From Phycisphaerae bacterium (GTDB lineage: Bacteria > Planctomycetota > Phycisphaerae > Sedimentisphaerales > Anaerobacaceae): 49,150 nucleotides of DNA. The stretch covers positions 1 to 49,150 of the forward strand of contig JAAYBV010000082.1 in the NCBI GenBank assembly GCA_012744475.1, given 5' to 3'. Shown in pieces: positions 10,138-33,676 of this stretch (position 1 is its first letter; the number at the start of each line of letters is the position of its first letter). Both the position numbers and the translations under genes were made by a program. The notes beneath the pieces are model-generated. The model made no database searches and was not told the origin of the DNA. It was given only the letters and a program-made list of their open reading frames with translations.

Positions 10138-11814
10138 ATGCGATCGTGTGTGTTCTTCGTTCTGGCTTTGGCGTGCGTTGCTCGCGCGCAGCGGCCGGCG
10201 GACCTGGTGATCCACAACGGCAAGATCGTCACCATCGACGATCAGCAGCCTCGCGCCGAGGCGGTGGCGATCGCGGGCGAGACGATCCTGTTCGCGGGCT
10301 CGAATGCCGATGTGCTGGCCTACATCGACGCGGCCCGGACGAAGGTGATCGACGCCCGCGGCCGGCTCGTCACGCCGGGCTTCAACGACGCCCACATCCA
10401 CTTCCTGCAGGGCGGCCGGGCCATGCTCGAAGTCGATCTGAACAACGCGAATACACTGGCCGAGGTGCAGGAGAAGGTCAAGGCCCGCGCGGCCGAACTG
10501 CCGGCCGGCACGCTGATCCGAGGACGGGGCTGGGACCACGAGCGATTTGCCGACAAGGCCTGGCCGACGAAGGAGGTTCTGGATGCGGTCGCGCCGAATC
10601 ATCCGGTGGCCCTGTCCCGCGTCGACGGCCACTCGATCTGGGTCAACAGCCTGCTGCTGCGCAAGGCGGGCATCACGCGCCGGACGCGCGATCCCTCCGG
10701 CGGGACGATCGTCCGTGATCCCGAGACGGGCGAACCGACGGGCATCCTCAAAGAAGCCGCCCAGGGCCTGCTCGACCTGGACGAGTACGAGCCGACCGAC
10801 GCCGAGCAGCGTGAGATGGACGAGCAAGGACTGGACAAGGCGCTGGCCGAGGCCCGCCGGACGGGCGTCACAAGCATCCAGCATCTCAACGGCGATTTCG
10901 AACTCTTCGAGCGGTTCCGCGACGAGGGCCGGCTGACGCTGCGTGTCACGGTCAACATGGAGCTGCCGTCCGGTAAACGACGGCTCGCCGAGTTGGACAA
11001 GCTGCGCGGCCGCTATCCGTCCGAGGGCAACTGGATTCGCTTCGGCTATCTCAAAGGTTTCATCGACGGCACGCTCGGCTCGGGCACCGCACTGATGTTC
11101 GAACCGTTCGCCGACAATCCGGAAACGTCCGGCCTGTCCCAGATGGCCTACAACGAATTAGAGCGTCGCGTCCTGGCCGCCGACCGCATGGGCTTCCAGA
11201 TCGGCGTCCACGCCATCGGCGCCAAGGGCAACCACTGGGTTCTGAACGCCTATGAGAAGGCCCGGCAGGTCAACGGGCGGCGGGACAGCCGCCACCGGAT
11301 CGAGCACGCGCAGATCCTGGCCGATGCGGACATCGGCCGCTTCGGACAGCTCGGCGTAATCGCTTCGATGCAGCCGACGCACTGCATCACGGACAAGCGA
11401 TTCGCCGAGAAGCGCATCGGCCGCGACCGCTGCCGCGGCGCTTATGCCTGGCGACGGCTGCTCGACGCGGACGCCCACATCGCCTTCGGCACGGACTGGC
11501 CCGTCGAGCCGGTCGATCCGCTGGAGGGCCTTTATGCGGCGGTCACCCGCAAGGACCGTGCGGGCGAGCCGGGCGAGGGCTGGTTCCCCGATCAGCGACT
11601 GACGATGGAAGAGGCGATCCGGCTCTACACGCTGGGCGCCGCCTATGCCGAGTTCACCGAGAACCGCAAGGGCATGATCCGCCCGGGCTATCTGGCCGAC
11701 CTGGTGATCTTCGACCGCGACCTGCTCACCGTCCCGCCCGAGCAGATCATGCAGGCCCAGGTCGACACCACCATCGTCGCCGGCCGGATCGTCTACCAGC
11801 GCCGATCACGGTAG
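10138..11814 (+). CDS. Secreted amidohydrolase, YtcJ-like (Amidohydro_3)
   Basis: A 558-residue metal-dependent amidohydrolase with a short signal peptide (MRSCVFFVLALACVARAQ) and AGAAGGAG upstream of the ATG. The family order is clear: DLVIHNGKIVTIDD, the beta-strand 1 metal motif GFNDAHIHF with H86 and H88, a glycine loop DGTLGSGTALMFEP, GVHAIG and RIEHAQ with further His ligands, and GTDWPVEP with the catalytic Asp. The C-terminal LADLVIFDRDLLTVP closes the composite beta sandwich. YtcJ-type enzymes hydrolyse N-acyl or cyclic amide compounds. The substrate is not predictable, and export to the periplasm is inferred. Confidence 0.9.
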   Translation: MRSCVFFVLALACVARAQRPADLVIHNGKIVTIDDQQPRAEAVAIAGETILFAGSNADVLAYIDAARTKVIDARGRLVTPGFNDAHIHFLQGGRAMLEVDLNNANTLAEVQEKVKARAAELPAGTLIRGRGWDHERFADKAWPTKEVLDAVAPNHPVALSRVDGHSIWVNSLLLRKAGITRRTRDPSGGTIVRDPETGEPTGILKEAAQGLLDLDEYEPTDAEQREMDEQGLDKALAEARRTGVTSIQHLNGDFELFERFRDEGRLTLRVTVNMELPSGKRRLAELDKLRGRYPSEGNWIRFGYLKGFIDGTLGSGTALMFEPFADNPETSGLSQMAYNELERRVLAADRMGFQIGVHAIGAKGNHWVLNAYEKARQVNGRRDSRHRIEHAQILADADIGRFGQLGVIASMQPTHCITDKRFAEKRIGRDRCRGAYAWRRLLDADAHIAFGTDWPVEPVDPLEGLYAAVTRKDRAGEPGEGWFPDQRLTMEEAIRLYTLGAAYAEFTENRKGMIRPGYLADLVIFDRDLLTVPPEQIMQAQVDTTIVAGRIVYQRRSR

Positions 11815-11884: not shown

Positions 11885-12424
11885 ATGACAGCCAAACAGT
11901 TCTTCGACTGGCAGACATCAGGCGGCACCAACGACGTGATGCGACTCGTCGACTGCCTCGAACGCGCTGACATCGCATGGTGCGCCATCGGCGGCGTAGC
12001 CGTGAACCATTGGGCGGCCGAGCCCGTGGTGACACAGGACGTCGACTTCGTCGTCACCACCGATGCCATTGAGCGGACGGTGTCGCTCCTCGAAGACGCG
12101 GGGTTCCGCTCGGAACGATTCGAGTGGTCCGTCAATTTCAAGGGGCAATCCCGCGTCAGCATCCAGCTTAGCACGGAGGAGTTCTATCGGGACTTTCCGA
12201 GCCGGGCCGTGCCGGCCGACGTGCACGGCATCCTGCTCCGCGTCGCCAGTCTCGACGATACGCTCCAAGGCAAGATCAGGGCCTGGAGCGACACCGAACG
12301 GCGGCAGAGCAAGCGGATCAAGGACCTCGGCGACATCGCCCGCCTCGTCGAAGCGCACCCGCATCTATGGGACACCTTGCCCGACGAGCTCAAACAGCAA
12401 CTCAAACGGCCCGAGAGAGAGTAA
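11885..12424 (+). CDS. Nucleotidyltransferase-fold protein (DUF6036/AbiEii-like)
   Basis: A 179-residue protein with a minimal nucleotidyltransferase core: IGGVAVNHW (the GG loop), then VTQDVDFVV giving the DxD metal pair, and a later SLDDTLQGKIRAWSD helix with Lys. Similar proteins act in toxin-antitoxin or abortive-infection pairs, but no partner gene is adjacent: the amidohydrolase is 70 bases upstream and pfp converges downstream. Start ATG 11885 gives the full family N-terminus. The Shine-Dalgarno is poor. It may be a solitary remnant of a two-gene system or a housekeeping enzyme. Confidence 0.7.
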   Translation: MTAKQFFDWQTSGGTNDVMRLVDCLERADIAWCAIGGVAVNHWAAEPVVTQDVDFVVTTDAIERTVSLLEDAGFRSERFEWSVNFKGQSRVSIQLSTEEFYRDFPSRAVPADVHGILLRVASLDDTLQGKIRAWSDTERRQSKRIKDLGDIARLVEAHPHLWDTLPDELKQQLKRPERE

Positions 12425-23682: not shown

Positions 23683-24942
23683 TCAACTCCTCGTTTCGTA
23701 GACGCGGCGGATTTCTTCGGCGATGAGGTCGAGGCCACGGGCGACGGCGCTCTCGTTCTGGGCGTAGCTGATGCGCAGGCACTCGTTCGCGTGGGACCAG
23801 GGTTCCGCCAGGCCGGGGAAGAAGTAGTGGCCCGACACGACGATCACATTGCGGGCCTTGAGCCGCTCGTAAAGCTCGTGGCAGGAGATCGGCAGGCCCG
23901 GCAGCCAGAGCCAGAGGAAGAACGCCCCTTCGGGGCGGTGCAGGCGGTAGTCGATCCCGTCGAGACCTCGGTGAAGCCGCTCGATGGCCCGGCGGGCCTT
24001 GCGCTCGTAGAACGGCGCGATCACCTCGCGGCCGAGCCGAAGGATCTCGCCCGAGCGGACCAGGTCGGTGACGATCGCCGTGCCCAGGCCGCCCGGCGCC
24101 AGGCTCATCACGGAGTTGACCCGCGCGACGGTCTCGACGATCTCCTCGGACGCGAGGATGATCCCCGTCCGCACGCCGGGAAGGCCCAGCTTCGAAAGGC
24201 TCATCAGCACGATCGTGTTGTCGTTCCACACCGGCTCGGCGTCGGTGAAGACGATATGCGGAAACGGCAATCCGTAGGCGTTGTCAACGATCAGCGGAAT
24301 GCCCCTGGCGCGGGCCAGCTCGTCGAGCCGGGCCAGTTCATCGCCGGTCAGCACATTGCCGCTCGGATTCGTCGGGCGCGAAACGCAGATGGCGCCGACG
24401 TCATCGCCGACGTCGAGCCGGTCGAAGTCGACGTGATACTTGAAGAAGTGCTCATCAAGCATCTCGATCCGTGGCCGGATCGCGACGAACGCGTCCGGCG
24501 TCAGCACCACGTCGCAATAGCCGATGTATTCGGGCGTCAGAGGGAACAGAATCTTCTTCGTCGTCCCATCGTCGTGCTCGCCCGCGAAGAGATTGAACAC
24601 GATGAACGACGCCAACTGGCTGCCGTTGGTCAGCGCGATGTTGCGCGGGCCGATTCGCCAGCCGAACTCCGAGCACAGCAGGCCCGCCAACGCCGCGATG
24701 AACTCGCGATCGCCTTCCGGCGGGCCATACTCGCCCACCGCCCGCTCGAACCGGGCGCCGTCCTGGAGCATCGCCATCGTGCTGCGGCGAAAGCAGCACT
24801 CGACCTCGGGGATATGTGCGGGATTGCCCCCGCCCAGCATGAGGACCTCGCCCTGCGGCGACAGCGCAGCGCCGAGATCGTCCATAAGCTGCCCGATGCC
24901 CGACCGGACCGCCATCCGCTGACCGAGCTTCGACAATCGCAT
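23683..24942 (-). CDS. avtA: Valine--pyruvate aminotransferase
   Basis: A 419-residue fold-type I PLP enzyme making valine and 2-oxo acids from alanine/pyruvate pairs. It matches AvtA along its whole length: SGIGQLMDDLGAA near the start, GGGNPAHIPE, NIALTNGSQ, FPLTPEYIGYCD, ICVSRPTNPSGNVLT, VDNAYGLPFP and the PLP-lysine motif SLSKLGLPG. Two adjacent ATGs occur (24945 and 24942); the second has the better spacing to GGAGG. The first overlaps the addA stop (ATGA). It is unusual to find avtA after addA, and it is probably co-transcribed. Confidence 0.9.
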   Translation of the reverse strand: MRLSKLGQRMAVRSGIGQLMDDLGAALSPQGEVLMLGGGNPAHIPEVECCFRRSTMAMLQDGARFERAVGEYGPPEGDREFIAALAGLLCSEFGWRIGPRNIALTNGSQLASFIVFNLFAGEHDDGTTKKILFPLTPEYIGYCDVVLTPDAFVAIRPRIEMLDEHFFKYHVDFDRLDVGDDVGAICVSRPTNPSGNVLTGDELARLDELARARGIPLIVDNAYGLPFPHIVFTDAEPVWNDNTIVLMSLSKLGLPGVRTGIILASEEIVETVARVNSVMSLAPGGLGTAIVTDLVRSGEILRLGREVIAPFYERKARRAIERLHRGLDGIDYRLHRPEGAFFLWLWLPGLPISCHELYERLKARNVIVVSGHYFFPGLAEPWSHANECLRISYAQNESAVARGLDLIAEEIRRVYETRS

Positions 24943-27900
24943 CATGCCTCCACCGCCACGGGCACTCTCGGCGCCAGGAAGTACAGCCATTTCTGCCGGA
25001 CGGGAGCCCCAAGGATGTCACGAGCCGCCCGGCCGTAGAGGTCCAATTGGCCGCGATACGCCTCGGCACGTGCGGCGATCTGCTCGCCCGCCACGCGGTC
25101 GCTCTTGAAGTCGATCACAATGAGGCCATCTCGGGTCTGTACCAGCATGTCGATGATCCCCTGCACCACGACAATCTCGTCGGCGCCGGCCGATCGGATC
25201 GCGCCGTCCGGCTCGCCGACGCGCAGGCCCCACGTGAAGGGCCATTCGCGATGGACGGTATTGTCCCGGCTCAGCACCAGCGTGCCAAGATCGCTTTCGA
25301 AGAAGGCCAGGATCGCATCGACGTCAACGCCGGCGGCAACCTCCGGCAAGATCGCCTCTTCTTCGACGAGCCGCCCGCACGTCCGCTCGACGGCCTGCCG
25401 CGTCACCGGCCCCGTCAGGTCGACGCTGGAGATCACCAGGTGCGTCGCCGCGCCGACCTGCCGGGCGGAGTCGGGCGGCGTTGAAGCCGTGTCGGATGCG
25501 ATCAGGGCCAGCGGCCGCCGGTCCAGCGCCCGCGAATAGTCCAGCCGGGTAAATTCGTCATCGCGGTGCGTCAACTCGGAGACCGACCGCTTGGCTGGCT
25601 CGCGCACCGCGGCGGCAAACGCGTACCGCCAATCCAGGCGCTCTTTCAGCTCCGCCAGCAACTGCCGGCTCGCCGCATCGGGACGGGCCTTCGCCTTCGG
25701 TGTCGCTCCGATCCCCCTCTTGCGGTCGCGAAGCTGCCGCACACGCTGCGTAAGCTGCCGCATCTCGTCGCCGCGATAGACGTACAGATCGAACAGGGCC
25801 TCGTTGTCCGTCGGCGGCGTCAGGTGCGTCCCGAAGGCCTCGTGCAAGGCCCGCCGATCGGCCAGGCCGTACAGCAGCCACTCCAGAGGACTCCTGGCGC
25901 GCTTGAGCAGCCACGCCGGAACCGCCGGATCGCTCAGCAGCAGGCCCTGCGTCAGGACCTTGCCGCAGTCCGTCCGCTTCTGCGAGGCCGTGACGATCAG
26001 TCGGTCCTTCGCTCTCGTCATCGCGACATAGAGAATGCGCATCTCTTCCGCCAGAGTCACGGCACGCCTCTTGGCGGCGATCACCTGATGCGCCAGCGAC
26101 GACAGCTTCGTGTTCGACCGCGCATCGATGATCCGCAGGCCCAGCGTGTGGTCGGTGTCCGCGACGAGGTCGGCCTGCGCATCCCGCTGGTTGAACTGGC
26201 TGTCCAGCTCCGCCAGGAAGACGACCGGAAACTCCAGCCCCTTGCTCTTATGAACGCTGAGGATGCGAACCGCGTTGCCGGCGCCGGCCGGCTCGGCGGG
26301 CGTCCAGTCCTGCCCGGCCTCCTGGAGCTTCTCGATGAACGCGACGAACCGCGTCAGCGACGGCACGCCCGCGCTGCTGGCGAACCCCTCGAACTGGATC
26401 GCCCGATCGTGCAGCTCGAGCAGATTGGCCTTGCGAGCCTGGCCGTTGGGCAGAGCGCAGACGAACGCGACGTACTGCGTCTCGCGATAGATGCGCCAGA
26501 GCAAATCGGCGAGCTGACCCCGCCGGGCGAGACGGCGCCATCGTTCGAGCGTCGCGAACGCTTCGCGCAGTTTCGCCGCCAGCTTCGCCTCGGTCCCGCT
26601 GTCACGGTATCGGATCGCTGCGGCATGGAAATCGACAGACGGCGACGAGTCGCGCGCGGCGATGCGGATCGTCGCCAGCTCGCTGTCGGTGAAGCCGAAG
26701 AGCGGACTGCGCAGCACGGCGGCCAGCTCGATGTCCCGCTGCGGATTGTCGAGCACCTTGAGCAGGCAGAGCACGTCGGCGATCTCGGTCGTCTCGAAGT
26801 AGCCGGCGGTGGCGTCGCAACTGACGGGGATGCCCGCCAGACGCAGAACCTCGACGTAGTCGTTGGCCTTCATCGCCAGCGAGCGCATCAGCACGACGAT
26901 GTCACGGTATTCGACGTCGCGGAAGCCGGCGGCGTCCTTGTCGAAGATTTGCATCGCGGGCCGGCCCGGCTCGGCGCCGACGATCTGCTGAATCCGCTGT
27001 GCGATCAGAGCGGCCTGCCGCTGTCGGGGACGCACGACTTCCGTGCTTTCCGCGTCAGCCTCCTGGTGGGTGTCTGCATCGTCGGCCTTCTCGTCGAGCA
27101 GGTGCAGCTCCACCAGCGGCGTTGGCGGTCCGGACGAGGAGGCCTGGGCCGCTGACTCGGGTCCGGGGCGCAGCCGTGCGGCCTCGTCGTAATCCATGTC
27201 CGCCAGCGCTTCGGTCATGATACGCCCGAAGACGTGGTTGACGAAATCCAGGATCCCCTTGGCCGAGCGGAAGTTGTAGTTGAGGTCGACGCGCAGCCCG
27301 CCCGCCGCATCCATCGTCTGCGACGAAGCCTGCAACCGTCGCAGGAAGATCGTCGGCTCGGCGCCGCGCCAGGCGTAGATGCTCTGCTTGACGTCACCGA
27401 CGACGAACACATTGTCGCCCGAGCTCAGCGCGTCGAGAATCCCCTGTTGCACCGGGTTGATGTCCTGATACTCGTCGACAAAGATGTACTTGTATCGCTC
27501 GCGCAGTCCCAGCGCCGTTTCGGAAGGTGCTGCGCCCTCGCCCGAATCGGCCGGACGCGTCAGCAGCCGCAGCGCGTAATGCTCCAGATCGGCGAAATCC
27601 AATCCGTTCAGCGCCTTCTTCCGCCGGGCGTACAGCGAATCGAACGTCCGCACCAGATCGATCAGGACGCGGCTCTGCGCGTTGGCGGACCGCCCCACCG
27701 CGTCCATGTAGTCGGGGTTGACGATCGCCAGATCGCTCAGCGACGCGAAATCACTTAGCGCCTTTGTGCGCAGCTCGTCCTTGATCAGCTTGCCGAGCGG
27801 CTCGGGAAACCCCTTCAGCGCGGGCGCTTTCGGCTTGACGAAGTTGCGAATCGCCTCGGCGCAGGCGTCCCAGTCGCCGGCTGCCAGCCGCTCGCGACAG

Positions 27901-28685
27901 GCCGCGACAGGCGCGATCACATCGGCCTCGAGCGCGGAGCCCCACTTGCCGCCCGGCTCTTCGCGTTCATACAAGCTCTTGGCCGCCCGCAGTCGCGACA
28001 GAATCGCGTCGAGCTCATCGGCGATGATCCGCTTCTGCGCCTGGCCCAGCTCGCTCGATTCCGGATCGGTCGCCTCTGCCAGCAGGCAGGCGCGTTCGCA
28101 CCAGGCGTCGCGCGACGCGACGGAGTCGAGAAACTCGTGCAGCCGGATCACGCTCGCCAGGAAGCCGCCGCTGTCGCGAACATCGCGCCGGCGCAGCAGA
28201 TTCTCCAGCGAAGCCACCAGATGCTCCTGTCGCCACGCCCACTCGATGGTCTCGTCGAGCACCTCGGCCTTGAGCAGCATCGCCTCGTCGGCGTCGATCA
28301 CGCGGAACGCCGGATCGAGCCCGACCTCGTGGAAATTCTCGGCGATCAGGCGTTTGCAGAACGCGTGGATCGTGCTGATGTCGGCGCCCTGGAGCAGCAC
28401 AAGCTGGCGGCCGAGCCGCCGGTCGTGCGTCTGCTCGTACGCTTCCTTGAGCCGCTTGCCGATCCGCGCGCGCATCTGCTCGGCGGCCGCATCGGTGAAG
28501 GTCAGCACGAGCATGTTCAGCACGTTCGGGCACCGCGCCGCATCAGAGACGAGATTGACGCAGCGACCCGACAGCACCGCCGTCTTGCCCGTGCCCGCCG
28601 ACGCGGTGACCAGCACGTTGACGCTGAGGGCCGCGATGGCCCGCTCCTGCTGCTCGGTCCACTGGATCTTCTTCTCGCCCGTCAT
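24942..28685 (-). CDS. addA: AddA-type ATP-dependent helicase/nuclease subunit
   Basis: A 1247-residue UvrD/Rep-family helicase with a C-terminal RecB-like nuclease, the AddA subunit of the AddAB complex that resects double-strand breaks. Motif I is TASAGTGKT (28-35), Walker B is in FVDEYQDINPVQ, GDVKQSIYAWRGAEP is the motif III region, and VLSVHKSKGLEFP-like text is present (ILSVHKSKGLEFP). The nuclease domain ends with GLIVIDFKSDRV, which carries the catalytic Asp and Lys. The start is ATG at 28685, overlapping the addB stop by four bases. It shares an operon with addB, avtA and the hypothetical gene. Confidence 0.93.
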   Translation of the reverse strand: MTGEKKIQWTEQQERAIAALSVNVLVTASAGTGKTAVLSGRCVNLVSDAARCPNVLNMLVLTFTDAAAEQMRARIGKRLKEAYEQTHDRRLGRQLVLLQGADISTIHAFCKRLIAENFHEVGLDPAFRVIDADEAMLLKAEVLDETIEWAWRQEHLVASLENLLRRRDVRDSGGFLASVIRLHEFLDSVASRDAWCERACLLAEATDPESSELGQAQKRIIADELDAILSRLRAAKSLYEREEPGGKWGSALEADVIAPVAACRERLAAGDWDACAEAIRNFVKPKAPALKGFPEPLGKLIKDELRTKALSDFASLSDLAIVNPDYMDAVGRSANAQSRVLIDLVRTFDSLYARRKKALNGLDFADLEHYALRLLTRPADSGEGAAPSETALGLRERYKYIFVDEYQDINPVQQGILDALSSGDNVFVVGDVKQSIYAWRGAEPTIFLRRLQASSQTMDAAGGLRVDLNYNFRSAKGILDFVNHVFGRIMTEALADMDYDEAARLRPGPESAAQASSSGPPTPLVELHLLDEKADDADTHQEADAESTEVVRPRQRQAALIAQRIQQIVGAEPGRPAMQIFDKDAAGFRDVEYRDIVVLMRSLAMKANDYVEVLRLAGIPVSCDATAGYFETTEIADVLCLLKVLDNPQRDIELAAVLRSPLFGFTDSELATIRIAARDSSPSVDFHAAAIRYRDSGTEAKLAAKLREAFATLERWRRLARRGQLADLLWRIYRETQYVAFVCALPNGQARKANLLELHDRAIQFEGFASSAGVPSLTRFVAFIEKLQEAGQDWTPAEPAGAGNAVRILSVHKSKGLEFPVVFLAELDSQFNQRDAQADLVADTDHTLGLRIIDARSNTKLSSLAHQVIAAKRRAVTLAEEMRILYVAMTRAKDRLIVTASQKRTDCGKVLTQGLLLSDPAVPAWLLKRARSPLEWLLYGLADRRALHEAFGTHLTPPTDNEALFDLYVYRGDEMRQLTQRVRQLRDRKRGIGATPKAKARPDAASRQLLAELKERLDWRYAFAAAVREPAKRSVSELTHRDDEFTRLDYSRALDRRPLALIASDTASTPPDSARQVGAATHLVISSVDLTGPVTRQAVERTCGRLVEEEAILPEVAAGVDVDAILAFFESDLGTLVLSRDNTVHREWPFTWGLRVGEPDGAIRSAGADEIVVVQGIIDMLVQTRDGLIVIDFKSDRVAGEQIAARAEAYRGQLDLYGRAARDILGAPVRQKWLYFLAPRVPVAVEA

Positions 28686-31600
28686 GATGTCACCGCTCCT
28701 CCCACCACATCGAGCTTGCCCTTGACATCCAGGAAGCGATAGTCGTTGATCTGCCAATCGAAGCGGCACAAGGCCCGATAGTCACAGTGCGTACAGGGTG
28801 ACTCGGTGCCGAGGCGATACGGATGGGCGTCGATGTACCCGGCGACGATGCCGGCCGCCAGCGCGATGATCTTGTCCCGCGTGAACGCCAACACGCGCTC
28901 GAAGTCGTCGGGCCGCAGCGACCCGCTCGTGGGGTAGTAGCCATATTGGCCATCCTTGCTCGTGACGGCGAAGTTGTAAAGCCGGCTCCAGTGGGAACTT
29001 GCGTCCGGATCAAGCGATGCGGCGTACTCGCCGTCGAACAGGCCCCGGGCCTGGCGGGCGGAGCGCTCGTCCCTCTGAGCCAGCTCTTCAATCGAGGCGG
29101 TATCGGGCGGCTGCTCGATCGGCATGCAGAAGGCTCCGGCGACGCGATCGACCTTCGCACCGGCAGCCAGCGACAGCGCCAGCAGGTACATCGGAAGCTG
29201 GATGTTCAGGCCGTGGTAGAACTGCGGCCAACTGAACGTCGCGCCGGTCTTCGTGCGTTTGTAGTCGAACACCAGGGCGATGCGCTGCCCATCGATCTGC
29301 GCGACGTCGAGCCGGTCGATCCTCCCGCTCAACGTCACCACCCCGCCGTCGGGCAGGGCCAGCTCGAACGCCCCGAGGTTCTGCTCGGCCGGGCCTTTGC
29401 AGCGCGTCTCGGGACCGAAGGCGACCTCGGACAGCAGGGGCCGGAACGCGCCGGCCCGCGCCATGCGGGCGATGTCGAGCACACATTCGCCCAGTACCTC
29501 GGCGGCGTTGGCGACGATGAATGCGTTGTGGTCGGAGCGGGCTTTGAACTTCGAAAGAAACGGATCGTGCGAGGCAAGCACCTCCACCTGCTCGCGCAGC
29601 AGCTCGCTCAGCCGGTCGTCGGCGACGGTCGCGAAGTTCTGCCCTTCGTCGGCCAGACGCTTGTGCAGGGCATCGAGCGCCGCGTGATAGAAGTTGCCCA
29701 GGTCGAGCGGTTCGAGCTTGAACTGACGCCGGGTCCGCAGTTCGAGGCCGTACCGCGCGAAGTGCTGGTAGGGACAGGCGGCGAAGGTCGCCAGCCGCGT
29801 CGCCGATACCTTCAGCTCCTTCCCGAAGAGATGCTCGGCCACCTTACGGTCCAGCGTGGCCTTGTTCTCGTAGCCAAGAGCCGCAAGGACGCAAGCCGCC
29901 GTGTGGCGGTGGTCCAGATCGGTACTCATCGCCGCCAACAGGCTTTCGAGCCGTTCGTCCGTTCGCTCCTGCCGTGCGAAGACGTCGCGGCCCAGTCGGG
30001 TGCATAGCCACTCGGCCAGCTCGGTCTCGGTGTGGATGTCCGACGCGTTCATGCCATCGCCAACCGACAGGGGCGAATCATCATTCGCCCCTACCGGGGC
30101 CAGGTCGTCGAACAGATCCGCCAGATCGTCCACGAACTGCGACCGCGTCACCGGACTGCCCTTTTCGTCGACGCTCGGGTAACTGATGCACAACAATTCA
30201 GACGGACGCGTGAAGGCGATGTAGGCCAGGTACTGCCGTTCCGCCAGCGTCTGCGTCGTGGTGGGCGCCAGATGAAAGCCGGCGGCCTCGGCCATGTCAC
30301 GATCCGCGTCGGTCAGCACTCCCGTCGAGGGCAACGGGATCGGAAACTGCTTCTGCGTGGCGCCCAGCAGGAACACCGCCCGCAGGTTGGGATGGCGGCT
30401 CCGCTCGATCGAGCCGACGAGTACCTGGTCCAGGCTCGGCGGGATGAAGGCCAGCGTCATCTGCGAGAACGCCAGGCTCAGAATCGCCAGGTAGTCTTCG
30501 GCGCTCATCGCGTCGCGGCCGAACACCTCGACCAGCTCGTCGAAGACGTCCACGAACCGCTCGAAAAACTGCCGGTGCTCGTCGGCGGTCGCCAGATCGC
30601 CGGCCTCGTGGGCCTCGTCGACCCAGGCCGCCACCGCCTGGCGGGCTTTCAGCCCATCGAGAAAGGCAAAGACCGCCCGCGTGAAGTCCGCTGCGCGTAG
30701 GGGCGAATCATCATTCGCCCCCGCCATCAGCGCACCACGCAGCTCGAGCAGCGGCCCGACCGCCGTCGTGCGAATCTTGTGGATCGCCGCCTCGTCGAAG
30801 CTCGCATCGTCGGGCCCCTGGAACTGCCAGGGATCCGCCTTGACCCAGTCCCGTCCGTCGACGCCGAACGCCAGGCAGTAGTTCTCGAGCACATCGACCT
30901 GCGCCGCCGGCACCGGCACAAGGTCGCTCTTGAGATACGCAAAGACGTCGGCGTGCCCGAAGCCGCCGATAACGGCCTGAAGGGCCGCGGTGACCAGCTC
31001 GACGACCGGATGGCGGTCGAGCGGCTTGCGCTGATCGATGAAATAGGGAATCTCGTGGTCGTCGAAGGCGGCCCGGATGTAGTGCTCGTAGCGGCCGAGG
31101 TCCGACGCCACCACCGCGATGTCACGATATCGAAGCCCGCGTTCCCGGACCAGCGAGCGGATCTGTCCGGCGACGAATTGCGTCTCGGTCCGCAGGTCCG
31201 GGGCCGACAGGAGCCGGATGTGCCCGTCCGCGCTGCTCCGGCCTGCGCCCAGGCGAAACAGGTTCTTCTCGACGTGCGCCAGCGGCGGACAGACGCGGAA
31301 CCGCCTGGCCTGGTCGAGAACGATCGGCTTGCCAAGCTCGATCTGGAAGGCCTTGAGCTGCTCGACAAGCTCACGGTACGTCCGCTCCGTCGCCTCGAAC
31401 AGCCCGTCCGACTCGCCCGCCGGCGACCCGAGGCCGGCCGGGTCCAGGCAGAGGGCGATCTCCGCCTGCTCGACCACGCGGAGCAATTCGATCAGAAGGG
31501 CCGTCTCCGCGCCGGTGAAACTGGCGAAACCGTCGACCCAGAGCCGAGCGCCCTTGAGGAAGTCGGCGTCGGCGATCCGCGCGCAGGCCTGGCGGACCTC

Positions 31601-32140
31601 GGCGTCGGGATCGACGAACCGCCCGCGAATCGCTTCGGTGTACTTGCCGAACACCAGCGCCAGATCGGCGAACTTCATCGCCGATAAGGGCGACGCATGC
31701 CCCGCCCCTGCCGTCCGAAGAGTCTCGAAGTCCTCGGGCGTCTTGTTGTAGCGGTGCAGTTCGCGAATCGTCTCGGCGATCCGGCGGGCGAAGCCCGGCA
31801 GAAGCGCCGAGGATCGGAAGACCTGCAACTGCTCGCGGCTGTCACGCAGGATCTTGTGGACGATCATCTGCCGGCCGATCGGCGAGACACTGGCGGTCGT
31901 GTTTCGCCCGGCCAGGAAGAATTGCAGGCGGTTGAACGACAGGACCCGCAGCCGATGGTAGCCAGCCGGGCCACTCGACAGGATCGCCCGCTCGGCCTCG
32001 TACGTCGCCTGCTCGGGCACCAGGAAGACCAGGGATTGAGTCGATCCCGAAGGAGACCGGGACAGCGCCTCGACAATCGCCTCGACGCAATGCGTCGTCT
32101 TGCCCGTACCGCTCCTGCCCAGAACAAATCGAACCGCCAT
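28682..32140 (-). CDS. addB: AddB-type helicase-nuclease subunit, with three in-frame palindromic inserts
   Basis: A 1152-residue AddB partner. It has the Walker A GRSGTGKTT near the N-terminus, a RecB-type nuclease core LVFDYKRTK, and the Fe-S cluster cysteines: one in TFAACPYQHF and three in PCTHCDYRALC. It joins AddA to degrade DNA ends. The ATG at 32140 gives the usual N-terminus MAVRFVLGRSGTGK; longer frames upstream are not protein-like. Three palindromic repeats lie inside the coding sequence and encode GANDDSPL, GANDDSPL and GAGHASPL, so they are tolerated as loops. The gene is the first of the operon, 618 bases past the M56 gene. Confidence 0.92.
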   Translation of the reverse strand: MAVRFVLGRSGTGKTTHCVEAIVEALSRSPSGSTQSLVFLVPEQATYEAERAILSSGPAGYHRLRVLSFNRLQFFLAGRNTTASVSPIGRQMIVHKILRDSREQLQVFRSSALLPGFARRIAETIRELHRYNKTPEDFETLRTAGAGHASPLSAMKFADLALVFGKYTEAIRGRFVDPDAEVRQACARIADADFLKGARLWVDGFASFTGAETALLIELLRVVEQAEIALCLDPAGLGSPAGESDGLFEATERTYRELVEQLKAFQIELGKPIVLDQARRFRVCPPLAHVEKNLFRLGAGRSSADGHIRLLSAPDLRTETQFVAGQIRSLVRERGLRYRDIAVVASDLGRYEHYIRAAFDDHEIPYFIDQRKPLDRHPVVELVTAALQAVIGGFGHADVFAYLKSDLVPVPAAQVDVLENYCLAFGVDGRDWVKADPWQFQGPDDASFDEAAIHKIRTTAVGPLLELRGALMAGANDDSPLRAADFTRAVFAFLDGLKARQAVAAWVDEAHEAGDLATADEHRQFFERFVDVFDELVEVFGRDAMSAEDYLAILSLAFSQMTLAFIPPSLDQVLVGSIERSRHPNLRAVFLLGATQKQFPIPLPSTGVLTDADRDMAEAAGFHLAPTTTQTLAERQYLAYIAFTRPSELLCISYPSVDEKGSPVTRSQFVDDLADLFDDLAPVGANDDSPLSVGDGMNASDIHTETELAEWLCTRLGRDVFARQERTDERLESLLAAMSTDLDHRHTAACVLAALGYENKATLDRKVAEHLFGKELKVSATRLATFAACPYQHFARYGLELRTRRQFKLEPLDLGNFYHAALDALHKRLADEGQNFATVADDRLSELLREQVEVLASHDPFLSKFKARSDHNAFIVANAAEVLGECVLDIARMARAGAFRPLLSEVAFGPETRCKGPAEQNLGAFELALPDGGVVTLSGRIDRLDVAQIDGQRIALVFDYKRTKTGATFSWPQFYHGLNIQLPMYLLALSLAAGAKVDRVAGAFCMPIEQPPDTASIEELAQRDERSARQARGLFDGEYAASLDPDASSHWSRLYNFAVTSKDGQYGYYPTSGSLRPDDFERVLAFTRDKIIALAAGIVAGYIDAHPYRLGTESPCTHCDYRALCRFDWQINDYRFLDVKGKLDVVGGAVTS
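30069..30092. repeat. Palindromic repeat inside addB, copy 1
   Basis: Perfect 10-base arms AGGGGCGAAT and ATTCGCCCCT with a CATC loop. On the coding strand it reads GANDDSPL in the addB frame, so the length is in phase and the gene remains open. Confidence 0.8.
30699..30721. repeat. Palindromic repeat inside addB, copy 2
   Basis: The same palindrome as at 30069, with 9-base arms GGGGCGAAT and ATTCGCCCC and the same CATC loop. It again encodes GANDDSPL in the same frame, about 630 bases away. Confidence 0.8.
31686..31709. repeat. Degenerate palindromic repeat inside addB, copy 3
   Basis: Related palindrome with arms AAGGGCG and CGCCCCT and a core GACGCATGC, encoding GAGHASPL in the addB frame. 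It is imperfect, which suggests an older insertion of a related family. Confidence 0.5.
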
Positions 32141-32758
32141 AGAATCCGTCCGTGAATAACGCCCACCTGAAGCGCCCCTTGTATCAGATTCCGGCCGGCT
32201 TTTCAACGCGTCGCCTGACGCGATTACCCGTTTTGACCCGCGGTGACGGTCTGGTTCGTAGTGACGCCGTGAGGCGTTACCATCACCGGACCAAGTATGC
32301 CCCTTCGGCAAGCTCAGGGCAGGCTCTTACGGGCACACTACAAACGGCTTCTCCCCCCGCCAGGAACCAAACAGTCGCGTCACCTTCTCCGGATGGCAAG
32401 CGAAAAGGACGCGGAGGCTCAACGCAATCTCATCGCACGCAAGGTCTCGCCAGAAACGCACCGCGCCCCGCGCGTCGGCCTGTGGCCCTGAACACATTGC
32501 CGGGATCAACGCCGATGCGATGGATTGCTTCTTCCGGATGGTGGCGGTCGGAGATGGCCGCAAGGGGCACGGCAGGCATTCCATATTTCCGGTTCACGAA
32601 GTTCCGTCCAGGCGCCGTGCCCCCGGCCATCATCCCGACCGACGCGCTACAAATAACCGCACGCGGCCTTCGCTGTCTATTGTGGGGACTACGTATTCTG
32701 TCGGCGGCAGGTCAAATGGCCGAATCGAAGGGGGAGGCTCCGGGGGCCGCGTCCCGGC
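32141..32758. other. Intergenic region with a dispersed-repeat fragment
   Basis: About 620 bases between addB and the M56 gene. GCTCAGGGCAGGCTCT at 32312-32327 matches, with one mismatch, 48688-48703 near the right end, a repeat often seen between genes. Open frames here are not protein-like. The addB promoter should be here but I cannot identify it. Confidence 0.4.
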
Positions 32759-33676
32759 TCAGGCGACGCGGATAAGGTCCAGGTCGGCGGCGGCCGGCAG
32801 CAGGGTCAGGCGCTGGACGTCCGCCAGCCGGCGGGCGTAGGAGCGGTCCCCGTCGCCGACGGTTTCGCGGACGGCCTCATCGGCCGCTTCATCCCGCAGC
32901 CGGCGGATGACCGCGCCGGCCACCCACAGGAACGGATTGTAGAAGTACACCACCTGCACGACATTCTGGATGAGGTTTACCCATAGATCGTGGCGTTTGA
33001 CGTGGGCCAGCTCATGGAACAGCACGTCGCGGAGGTGTCGCGAGCCCAGCGACGGCGCGAGGTTGCGCGGCACCACGATGACCGGATGAAGCAGTCCGCA
33101 GACCGCCGGCCGGGTGCCTTCGGCGGAAATCCGCAGATCCACTTTGCCGCGGACGCCCATGCGCTTGCGGCAGTAGAGAAGGATGTCGGTCATCAGGAAA
33201 TTGGCATCGGGCGAACGATCGACGCTGCGGCACGCCGCACACGCGCGACGAACCACCACCACGCTCATCACGACGACGCCACCGAGCCACAGCAGCAGGA
33301 GCCCCCCTTGCCAGGTGATGAAGAGTGGCGGCTTCCCTATCCCAACCGTGGTGGTCTGGGACTGTCCGGTGAGAGGCCGGGATAGGGAAGCACGCGCGTG
33401 TTCCGCTGCCTGGTGTGTGGTCGGGTCTGCGAAGGCAGCGTTGCCAGATGGCAAGAAGTGGGAAGGAGGACTAAGCGGAAGAAAAGGACTCAGTGCCAGG
33501 AACACCAGCACCGCCGTGACCAGCCCGCATCGCAGGGAGGCACGGGCTTTCTTTCGAAGCAGAAATTCGGCCAGCAGCGCTGCGCCGATCAGCAGCGCCG
33601 AAATCAGCAACATCGGCAAAGCGAACGCCACGAAGGCCTCGCCCATCGTATTCAGTTGTCCAAGCGTCCATTCCAT
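32759..33676 (-). CDS. M56 family (BlaR1-like) membrane metallopeptidase
   Basis: A 305-residue protein with hydrophobic segments at about 17-38, 48-66 and 123-143, then a cytoplasmic-facing domain with the zinc motif HELAH at 221-225 (VLFHELAHVKRHDLW), followed by a further hydrophobic helix (WVNLIQNVVQVVYFYNPFLWV) and the RDEAADE-type segment LRDEAADEAVRE. This is the BlaR1/MecR1 peptidase fold without a penicillin-binding sensor. Such peptidases usually cleave a BlaI repressor, but no BlaI gene is adjacent. Upstream lie the 1206-residue membrane protein and an ECF sigma factor, making these possible targets. GAGG lies seven bases before ATG 33676. Confidence 0.88.
   Translation of the reverse strand: MEWTLGQLNTMGEAFVAFALPMLLISALLIGAALLAEFLLRKKARASLRCGLVTAVLVFLALSPFLPLSPPSHFLPSGNAAFADPTTHQAAEHARASLSRPLTGQSQTTTVGIGKPPLFITWQGGLLLLWLGGVVVMSVVVVRRACAACRSVDRSPDANFLMTDILLYCRKRMGVRGKVDLRISAEGTRPAVCGLLHPVIVVPRNLAPSLGSRHLRDVLFHELAHVKRHDLWVNLIQNVVQVVYFYNPFLWVAGAVIRRLRDEAADEAVRETVGDGDRSYARRLADVQRLTLLPAAADLDLIRVA

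Follow-up and report, generated by a model that had tools for sequence, protein, structure and literature searches.

GTAG-tagged palindromes and the addB locus

The GTAG-tagged repetitive extragenic palindromes (REPs), sequences of 20-40 nt that can fold into a hairpin, are described in the main text of Di Nocera et al. 2013 (PMC3733652) as 24 families with many copies each, located mostly between genes and with Planctomycetes among the hosts. By the same account, some REPs of several species lie wholly inside open reading frames (ORFs), in frame, including genes of replication and repair such as recBCD, uvrABCD and those for DNA polymerases; the recB REPs of two Xanthomonas species occupy about the same site, and the in-gene copies were suggested to sit in flexible linkers. 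A second paper (PMC6006769) describes, in its account of these elements, double-foot REPs, in which GT[AG]G at one end is mirrored by its reverse complement at the opposite end and which are scattered across phyla. It equates subclass 2.4 of the REP transposase TnpA_REP with group 4 of the REP-associated tyrosine transposases (RAYTs), a subclass marked by REPs that flank the transposase gene and REPs that lie in frame between its HuH motif and its tyrosine; a double-foot REP, it proposes, could arise via central deletion of an inverted REP pair. Here we analyze three such palindromes in the addB gene of a Phycisphaerae bacterium (assembly GCA_012744475.1), which lies in a window, that is, the whole stretch of DNA studied, of 49,150 nucleotides (contig JAAYBV010000082.1, positions 1 to 49,150).

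The three sequences, at 30067-30094, 30697-30724 and 31684-31711 of the window, all on the minus strand, are best explained as GTAG-tagged double-foot REP elements, hairpins of small size that are mobile but non-autonomous, that entered addB at different times, a reading to which we assign a probability of about 0.78. They share with the REPs of PMC3733652 the palindrome, the GTAG foot, the copy number, the in-frame members within ORFs and the occurrence in repair genes; most copies here, in contrast to what the main text of that paper describes, carry the foot at both ends. With the double-foot REPs of subclass 2.4, as presented in PMC6006769, the family shares the feet at both ends and the copies flanking and inside RAYT genes. 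An earlier note on this DNA had likened the elements to the palindromic elements of Rickettsia (RPEs). The likeness extends to in-frame palindromes within ORFs that likely encode functional proteins, but RPE-4 and RPE-6 are assigned in the main text of PMC3733652 to CGTC-tagged repeats, RPE-1 is longer, and the foot here is GTAG; the RPEs, set apart by these descriptions, work alike, but the addB elements are not members, and the nearest kind appears instead to be the double-foot REPs of subclass 2.4 RAYTs.

In-gene REPs as a kind are thus already known, given those reported in PMC3733652 in recBCD and other genes. As far as our searches go, the new details are AddB as the host gene, the dated series of insertions and the pairing of the palindrome with a RAYT: neither AddA nor AddB is named in the main text of PMC3733652, none of the papers listed in a literature search for AddB together with REP or RAYT names AddB, and a search by the DNA string of the palindrome returned unrelated matches only. 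The locus provides a relatively dated case: the three REPs within this single repair gene differ in age, one site is empty in congeners, another is shared and holds a different element in one congener, and the genome also encodes a probable transposase. The question posed in 2013, of whether REPs inside recombination genes are neutral or alter repair, thereby becomes testable with laboratory AddAB.

The elements, their family and their counterparts in congeners

The addB gene (28682-32140, minus strand) comprises 1152 codons and a stop and houses all three elements in an open frame. Its product produced matches above the cut-off to ADDB_N, PDDEXK_1 and UvrD_C in a Pfam domain search, and its residues 1-1142 align to Bacillus AddB 3U44 (E 9.6e-124); the score against TIGR02773, 667 bits, is under the cut-off of that family, 903.7. 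The Fe-S cysteines are visible by eye in the translation. The earlier claim that the frame remains open together with the nuclease is borne out by the intact ORF and by the AddB N-terminal and PD-(D/E)XK domains.

Two of the elements belong to a subfamily that we denote s1, with the core GAATNATNATTC: 30067-30094 (codons 683-691, V-GANDDSPL) and 30697-30724 (codons 473-481, A-GANDDSPL). The pattern GGGGCGAATCATCATTCGCCCC is exact at 30070-30091 and 30700-30721, and these are the 2 matches obtained in the window when up to 3 mismatches are allowed, against 0.07 expected. Each s1 copy retains a GTAG foot at one end: on the coding strand, 30067-30094 has an intact GTAG foot and ends in CTGT, and 30697-30724 reads GCGG...CTAC, with one foot decayed. 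As single-stranded DNA, the two copies, which keep perfect 9-10 bp stems, fold with -11.8 and -10.9 kcal/mol, and 0 of 200 shuffles did as well. The third element (31684-31711, codons 144-152, A-GAGHASPL) differs on the coding strand from the sequence GTAGGGGCGAGGCATGCCTCGCCCCTAC of a subfamily s2, whose core is GAGGCATGCCTC, at 5 of 28 positions; among 2000 codon-shuffled addB sequences, the closest match to s2 had 7 mismatches and none reached 5. The third copy folds no better than shuffles (56 of 200 as good). The s1 and s2 subfamilies differ in the inner 8 nt, and by its sequence the third copy is a decayed member of the sister subfamily s2 rather than a worn s1 copy. Outside the three elements, the best matches in the window have 10 mismatches to s1 and 11 to s2. 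Two near-identical palindromes and a degenerate relative, all encoding G-A-x-x-x-S-P-L in one reading frame, had been claimed from the sequence, and this stands: the peptides are GANDDSPL twice and GAGHASPL, and all three elements begin in codon phase 0.

The genome (5.75 Mb, 118 contigs) contains 51 exact matches of GGGGCGAATN{2,8}ATTCGCCCC and, in a fixed form with up to 3 mismatches, 199 copies, the exact ones included; reversed-pattern controls gave 0 in both searches. The s1 consensus is GTAGGGGCGAATNATNATTCGCCCCTAC, a 28-nt sequence running from GTAG to CTAC, with unconserved flanks beyond the 28 nt in 49 contexts (50 places were listed, one of which was a duplicate context). Among the 98 arms of these copies, the foot ahead of the invariant G has G in 88, T in 71 and A in 82. 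Thus defined, the consensus fits a foot with its reverse complement at both ends, and a perfect example occurs in the addB gene of a congener (G004). The s2 subfamily is represented in the genome by 7 exact 22-nt cores, and a loose s2 pattern yielded 19 and 22 matches versus 6 and 5 in the control.

To assess the age of the elements, AddB was aligned across this genome and 29 relatives (30 loci, a few of them partial, out of 59 genomes with a match), and codons were compared between this genome and six relatives; G002, in which addB is in two pieces, was left out of the latter. The close congeners G004, G001 and G005 show about 73% protein identity in AddB. At 30067, none of the three has an insert, and this genome is longer by 11 codons (33 nt); G003, G029 and G036 also lack the insert, with this genome 7 codons longer. 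At 30697, the matching codons hold a perfect 28-nt element in G004, whose gene is about 78% identical to this one in DNA, and a decayed s1 copy in G001. The corresponding place in G005 (L019) is occupied by a different 50-nt stretch that folds into two hairpins, each with a perfect 8-bp stem, flanked by unpaired GTAG on one side and unpaired CTAC on the other (none of 200 shuffles did as well), that is, a REP pair with its feet outward; apparently either one element was swapped for another or a second one entered independently. At 31684, the s2 positions are kept in 22 of 28 cases in G004 and 21 of 28 in G005, and in G001 only in the right half. By DNA comparison, none of the three elements was found in G003, G029 and G036.

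The shared sites are most simply explained by inheritance but may reflect independent entry at the same codons. Inheritance is apparent elsewhere in the genome: at least 8 of 50 copies are matched at the same place in a congener (L002, L012, L049, L057, L066, L071, L076 and the addB copy at 30697), a lower bound obtained from exact copies only, with 58 of 60 congener copies compared, that says nothing on the rate of loss. The assertion that all three sequences are insertions thus holds in part: the site at 30067 is empty in three congeners, but the three are not equal, the copy at 30697 being shared and that at 31684 being both shared and of the other subfamily.

These comparisons bear on two other explanations. 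The first is that AddB has a conserved GAxxxSPL loop whose coding sequence is palindromic by chance. The nearest congeners do have similar residues at 30697 and 31684, and SPL occurs at or near a site in single relatives (L027 and L037), but GAxxxSPL is absent from the other aligned relatives where the sites are covered. Against the 0.07 matches expected in the window and the 51 exact copies in the genome, and with a clean empty site in three congeners that refutes it outright for 30067, this explanation can practically be dismissed; the two outcomes that the earlier note had named as fatal to its view, the same residues in relatives lacking the palindrome and a lack of further genomic copies, are both contradicted for this newest copy.

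The second is that the addB hairpins are retained by selection for a function in DNA or RNA, such as mRNA stability, attenuation upstream of addA or a protein-binding site. The perfect stems of the two s1 copies would fit such a function, as would the perfect G004 element at the same codons despite the divergence of the two genes. However, the elements are decayed or replaced in G001, in G005 and in the third copy, the newest one is missing in three close congeners, the same element occurs in unrelated genes, and a Rfam scan of 28600-32800 detected no family at the gathering score. Selection of this kind therefore appears quite improbable.

In the AddB alignment, 30067 and 30697 fall in length-variable stretches and 31684 in a sequence-variable one. 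Toleration of the elements as surface loops, as the earlier note had it, is plausible. An AlphaFold2 fold of AddB alone was not used (mean pLDDT 36.8, pTM 0.28); by its helix calls all three sites fall at the ends of helices or between them, which at this pLDDT is worth little. The number of copies expected in a gene of 3.46 kb ranges from about 0.03 (from the 51 exact copies) to about 0.12 (from the 199 near ones); by a rough estimate across all genes, the exact-copy pair in addB does not amount to a significant enrichment.

Beyond this genome, the exact core was found in 7 of 392 genomes of a sample of its own phylum, this one included, and five of seven close relatives carry copies (29, 15, 7, 5 and 4). 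In public genomes, the 28-nt form occurs in at least 117 stretches. Among the 80 of them listed, the hosts, by record names, include Desulfacinum, Bacteroidales, Chloroflexi, SAR202, Dehalococcoidia, Omnitrophota, Zixiibacteriota, Synergistaceae, Spirochaetia, Nitrospirae, Geomonas and others. The distribution of the palindrome is thus patchy and crosses phyla. The exact 28-nt palindrome was also detected in nine stretches of eight viral contigs (L320-L328), and viruses are a possible route between phyla.

Reading frame, host genes and junctions

The frame of the in-gene copies is forced by the stop codons of the palindrome. In phase 1 of an intact element, GTAG yields a TAG stop; in phase 2 the core reads TNA TNA, a stop for most of the loop sequences seen; phase 0 is stop-free. 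Since the palindrome reads alike on both strands, phase 0 is the only one that is always open, whichever the strand, and surviving in-gene copies accordingly spell GANxxSPL. The common frame of the three addB copies is for this reason no separate marvel.

The gene position of 50 of the 51 exact copies was examined with a dicodon model, which replaced codon-usage gene calling that separated the frames poorly. On held-out data, 88% of 156 chunks in the true frame pass the model, as do 16% of false frames, so that the number of in-gene copies is approximate and possibly an underestimate. Of these copies, 12 were called in a gene, 11 of them in phase 0, in agreement with the earlier suggestion that a REP-like element has spread into coding sequence; the other 38 were not called in a gene, which is not proof of an intergenic position. 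Pfam searches with 14 copy-bearing ORFs of this genome identified 7 with a domain above the cut-off, holding 8 copies: an epimerase (L001), a lamin-tail/CotH protein (L004), an AAA/M41 fusion (L051), a GH38 protein (L053), a GFO/IDH oxidoreductase (L068), an M56 protein (L069) and addB, with two copies. No Pfam domain was found in the ORFs L002, L003, L071 (two ORFs), L074 and L075, and L012 has one below the cut-off.

A domain above the cut-off was likewise detected in 11 of 21 ORFs from other organisms, and in 6 of the 11 a phase-0 palindrome falls inside the domain or after it: an amino-acid permease (L162), a Y-family polymerase (L168), a ResIII protein (L195), a secretion-tail protein (L133), a sigma factor (L177) and the RAYT of L180. 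In four others (L148, L187, L199 and L203) the palindrome lies ahead of the only domain and may be outside the real gene. The polymerase ORF, of the impB/mucB/samB kind and another repair-type gene, comes from Candidatus Uhrbacteria by record name, with the in-frame palindrome (L168:1231-1258) right behind its C-terminal domain. In a serpin ORF of G002 (L090:1501-1522), the palindrome is at codon 301, inside a Pfam match of 412.6 bits. One ORF of another organism (L142:2811-5168, 786 codons, with F5/F8 domains) carries the palindrome in phase 2, 72 codons from its end, and possibly represents a genuine departure from the phase-0 rule.

Examination of the junctions indicates that, at the few sites compared, the element occupies the place of target DNA, with a net change in whole codons. 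Six orthologues of the GFO/IDH gene (75-81% identity) all lack the element, as does G001, which has only a relative at 53%. Where the orthologues read CAT CCC AAA GAG CTG C|TC GAC or close to it, this genome has CAT, the 28-nt element and TT GAC: 28 nt occupy the place of 13, for a net gain of 5 codons. In the epimerase gene, 28 nt stand for about 16 nt, adding 4 codons, and the site is empty in the three orthologues (60-61%) that cover it; the rows L258, L260 and L261, which are unaligned over the site, were left out. At 30697 in addB, the element stands for about 28 nt, with 0 codons gained relative to G029, G003 and G036. For the AAA/M41 ORF (L051), no clean orthologue was found. As a plain insertion of 28 nt, a length not divisible by 3, would have broken the frame, target DNA was either replaced on integration or lost from the flanks afterwards. 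The frame has been kept, as claimed previously, but the sites do not look like plain insertions: 28 nt are found in place of 13, about 16 or about 28, and the site at 30067 gained 33 nt. The missing target DNA at the sites compared bears on how REPs integrate.

This arrangement is also compatible with a more radical proposal, namely, that the hairpin acts as a mobile cassette for a peptide, the turn-forming linker V-G-A-N-x-x-S-P-L that takes the place of the target, with a RAYT repeatedly rewriting surface loops in frame, 30697 serving as an exchange site and the 28-nt element acting as a loop donor that moves horizontally across phyla; we consider this improbable.

A probable transposase in the genome and the proposed mode of spread

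At a palindrome locus of a Spirochaetia genome (L180), the ORF of a Y1 transposase contains an in-frame s1 element six residues past NHVH. With this protein as the query, a RAYT was identified in the genome studied here (G000:C77:11629-12198), 44% identical to the L180 RAYT (E 9.5e-38). It is flanked by s2 elements, GTAG feet outward, at 11583 and 12203 and carries a further s2 in frame at 11896, which reads GRARHASPL. The RAYT of G005 (G005:C7) similarly has s2 flanks and an in-frame s2 inside, and that of a related genus (G029:C39), which has an internal stop, has s1 pairs on both sides and two in-frame s1 inside. In all four RAYTs, the REP lies in frame between HuH and Y: s2 in C77 and G005:C7, two s1 in G029:C39 and s1 in L180. 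The C77 ORF scores 26 bits against PF01797 (cut-off 23) and 65.7 against the NCBIfam model REP_Tyr_transpos, under the cut-off of 80. Its motifs, NHMH and YIEANP, are both slightly off NH[IFV]H and YIxNNP, those published for subclass 2.4 in the text of PMC6006769; NHVH and YIVNNP of L180 match them, and in G029 NHVH matches but YIADNP differs. G003 and G036 have neither copies of the repeat nor a RAYT of the L180 type.

Given these associations, we infer that the elements are mobilized by a RAYT. A RAYT of subclass 2.4 would bind the GTAG-footed hairpin in single-stranded DNA and move it, probably at the replication fork; integration would be imprecise, with some of the target replaced or later lost. 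Most hits within genes would be purged, whereas the few lying in frame in a flexible linker would survive as a loop rich in Gly, Asn, Asp, Ser and Pro, which we propose to be neutral, and after entry the palindrome would decay with the frame staying open. On this scheme, the peptide would need no function in AddB.

Several observations weigh against this scenario. The RAYT of this genome is flanked by s2, not by the commoner s1; a search with the PF01797 profile and the L180 query found no s1-flanked RAYT in the genome, and beside the C77 gene there is only an s1-like stretch with 6 mismatches (C77:12248). The copies beside RAYTs are single-footed and those elsewhere mostly double-footed. Among the congeners, G004 has 29 s1 copies and a weak RAYT match only (E 5.3e-5), G001 has 5 copies and a weak match (8.4e-7), and G002 has 7 copies and no match. 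A similar RAYT is present at 2 of 89 public palindrome loci by tblastn and at 3 of 80 by profile. The junctions are unlike those of precise IS200/IS605-type insertion, and the twelfth in-gene call (L056), a weak one, is in phase 1. The origin of double-foot REPs by central deletion of an inverted pair, as put forward in the account of PMC6006769, fits both the single-footed copies beside RAYTs and the REP pair in the addB gene of G005.

Alternatively, no transposase need be involved: the elements could spread during break repair, as filler or template-switch patches, or through ectopic gene conversion from one hairpin to another. This would explain the replacement of target DNA, including 28 nt for 13 in the GFO/IDH gene and for about 16 in the epimerase gene, and the two-hairpin element of G005 at the 30697 codons; the extra loss or gain that each in-frame copy of a 28-nt element required, the different GTAG...CTAC elements at one addB site among congeners and the copy-bearing genomes that lack a strong RAYT match all point the same way. 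However, RAYT genes are both flanked by the repeats and contain them, in this genome (s2) and in G029 (s1), and the loss of flanking DNA may postdate insertion. We regard transposase-free spread as unlikely, although by no means negligible, and favor entry of GTAG-tagged double-foot REPs into addB at different times.

Across 31 RAYT loci of this genome and seven relatives (two of these loci being the same place), one s1-like copy was seen, about 1.2 kb from its RAYT. The genome studied here contains a second RAYT (1650-2216 at G000:C22:1496-2242, L078), located between CATCGGCAAGCNNTGCTTGCCGATG-like palindromes unrelated to the addB elements; it was the only one identified with PF01797, and a view that the addB elements are unconnected with RAYTs was dropped once the L180 query had found C77.

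Directly downstream of addB lies addA (24942-28769, minus strand), the product of which scores 833 bits against TIGR02785 (cut-off 707.65); a scan of the window for both subfamilies showed no s1 or s2 copies in addA. On its other side, addB is adjoined by an ORF for a BlaR1/M56-like sensor (32759-33676 of the window, minus strand), which scores under the family cut-off; the M56 ORF of the same genome that holds an in-gene copy of the palindrome (L069) is a different one.

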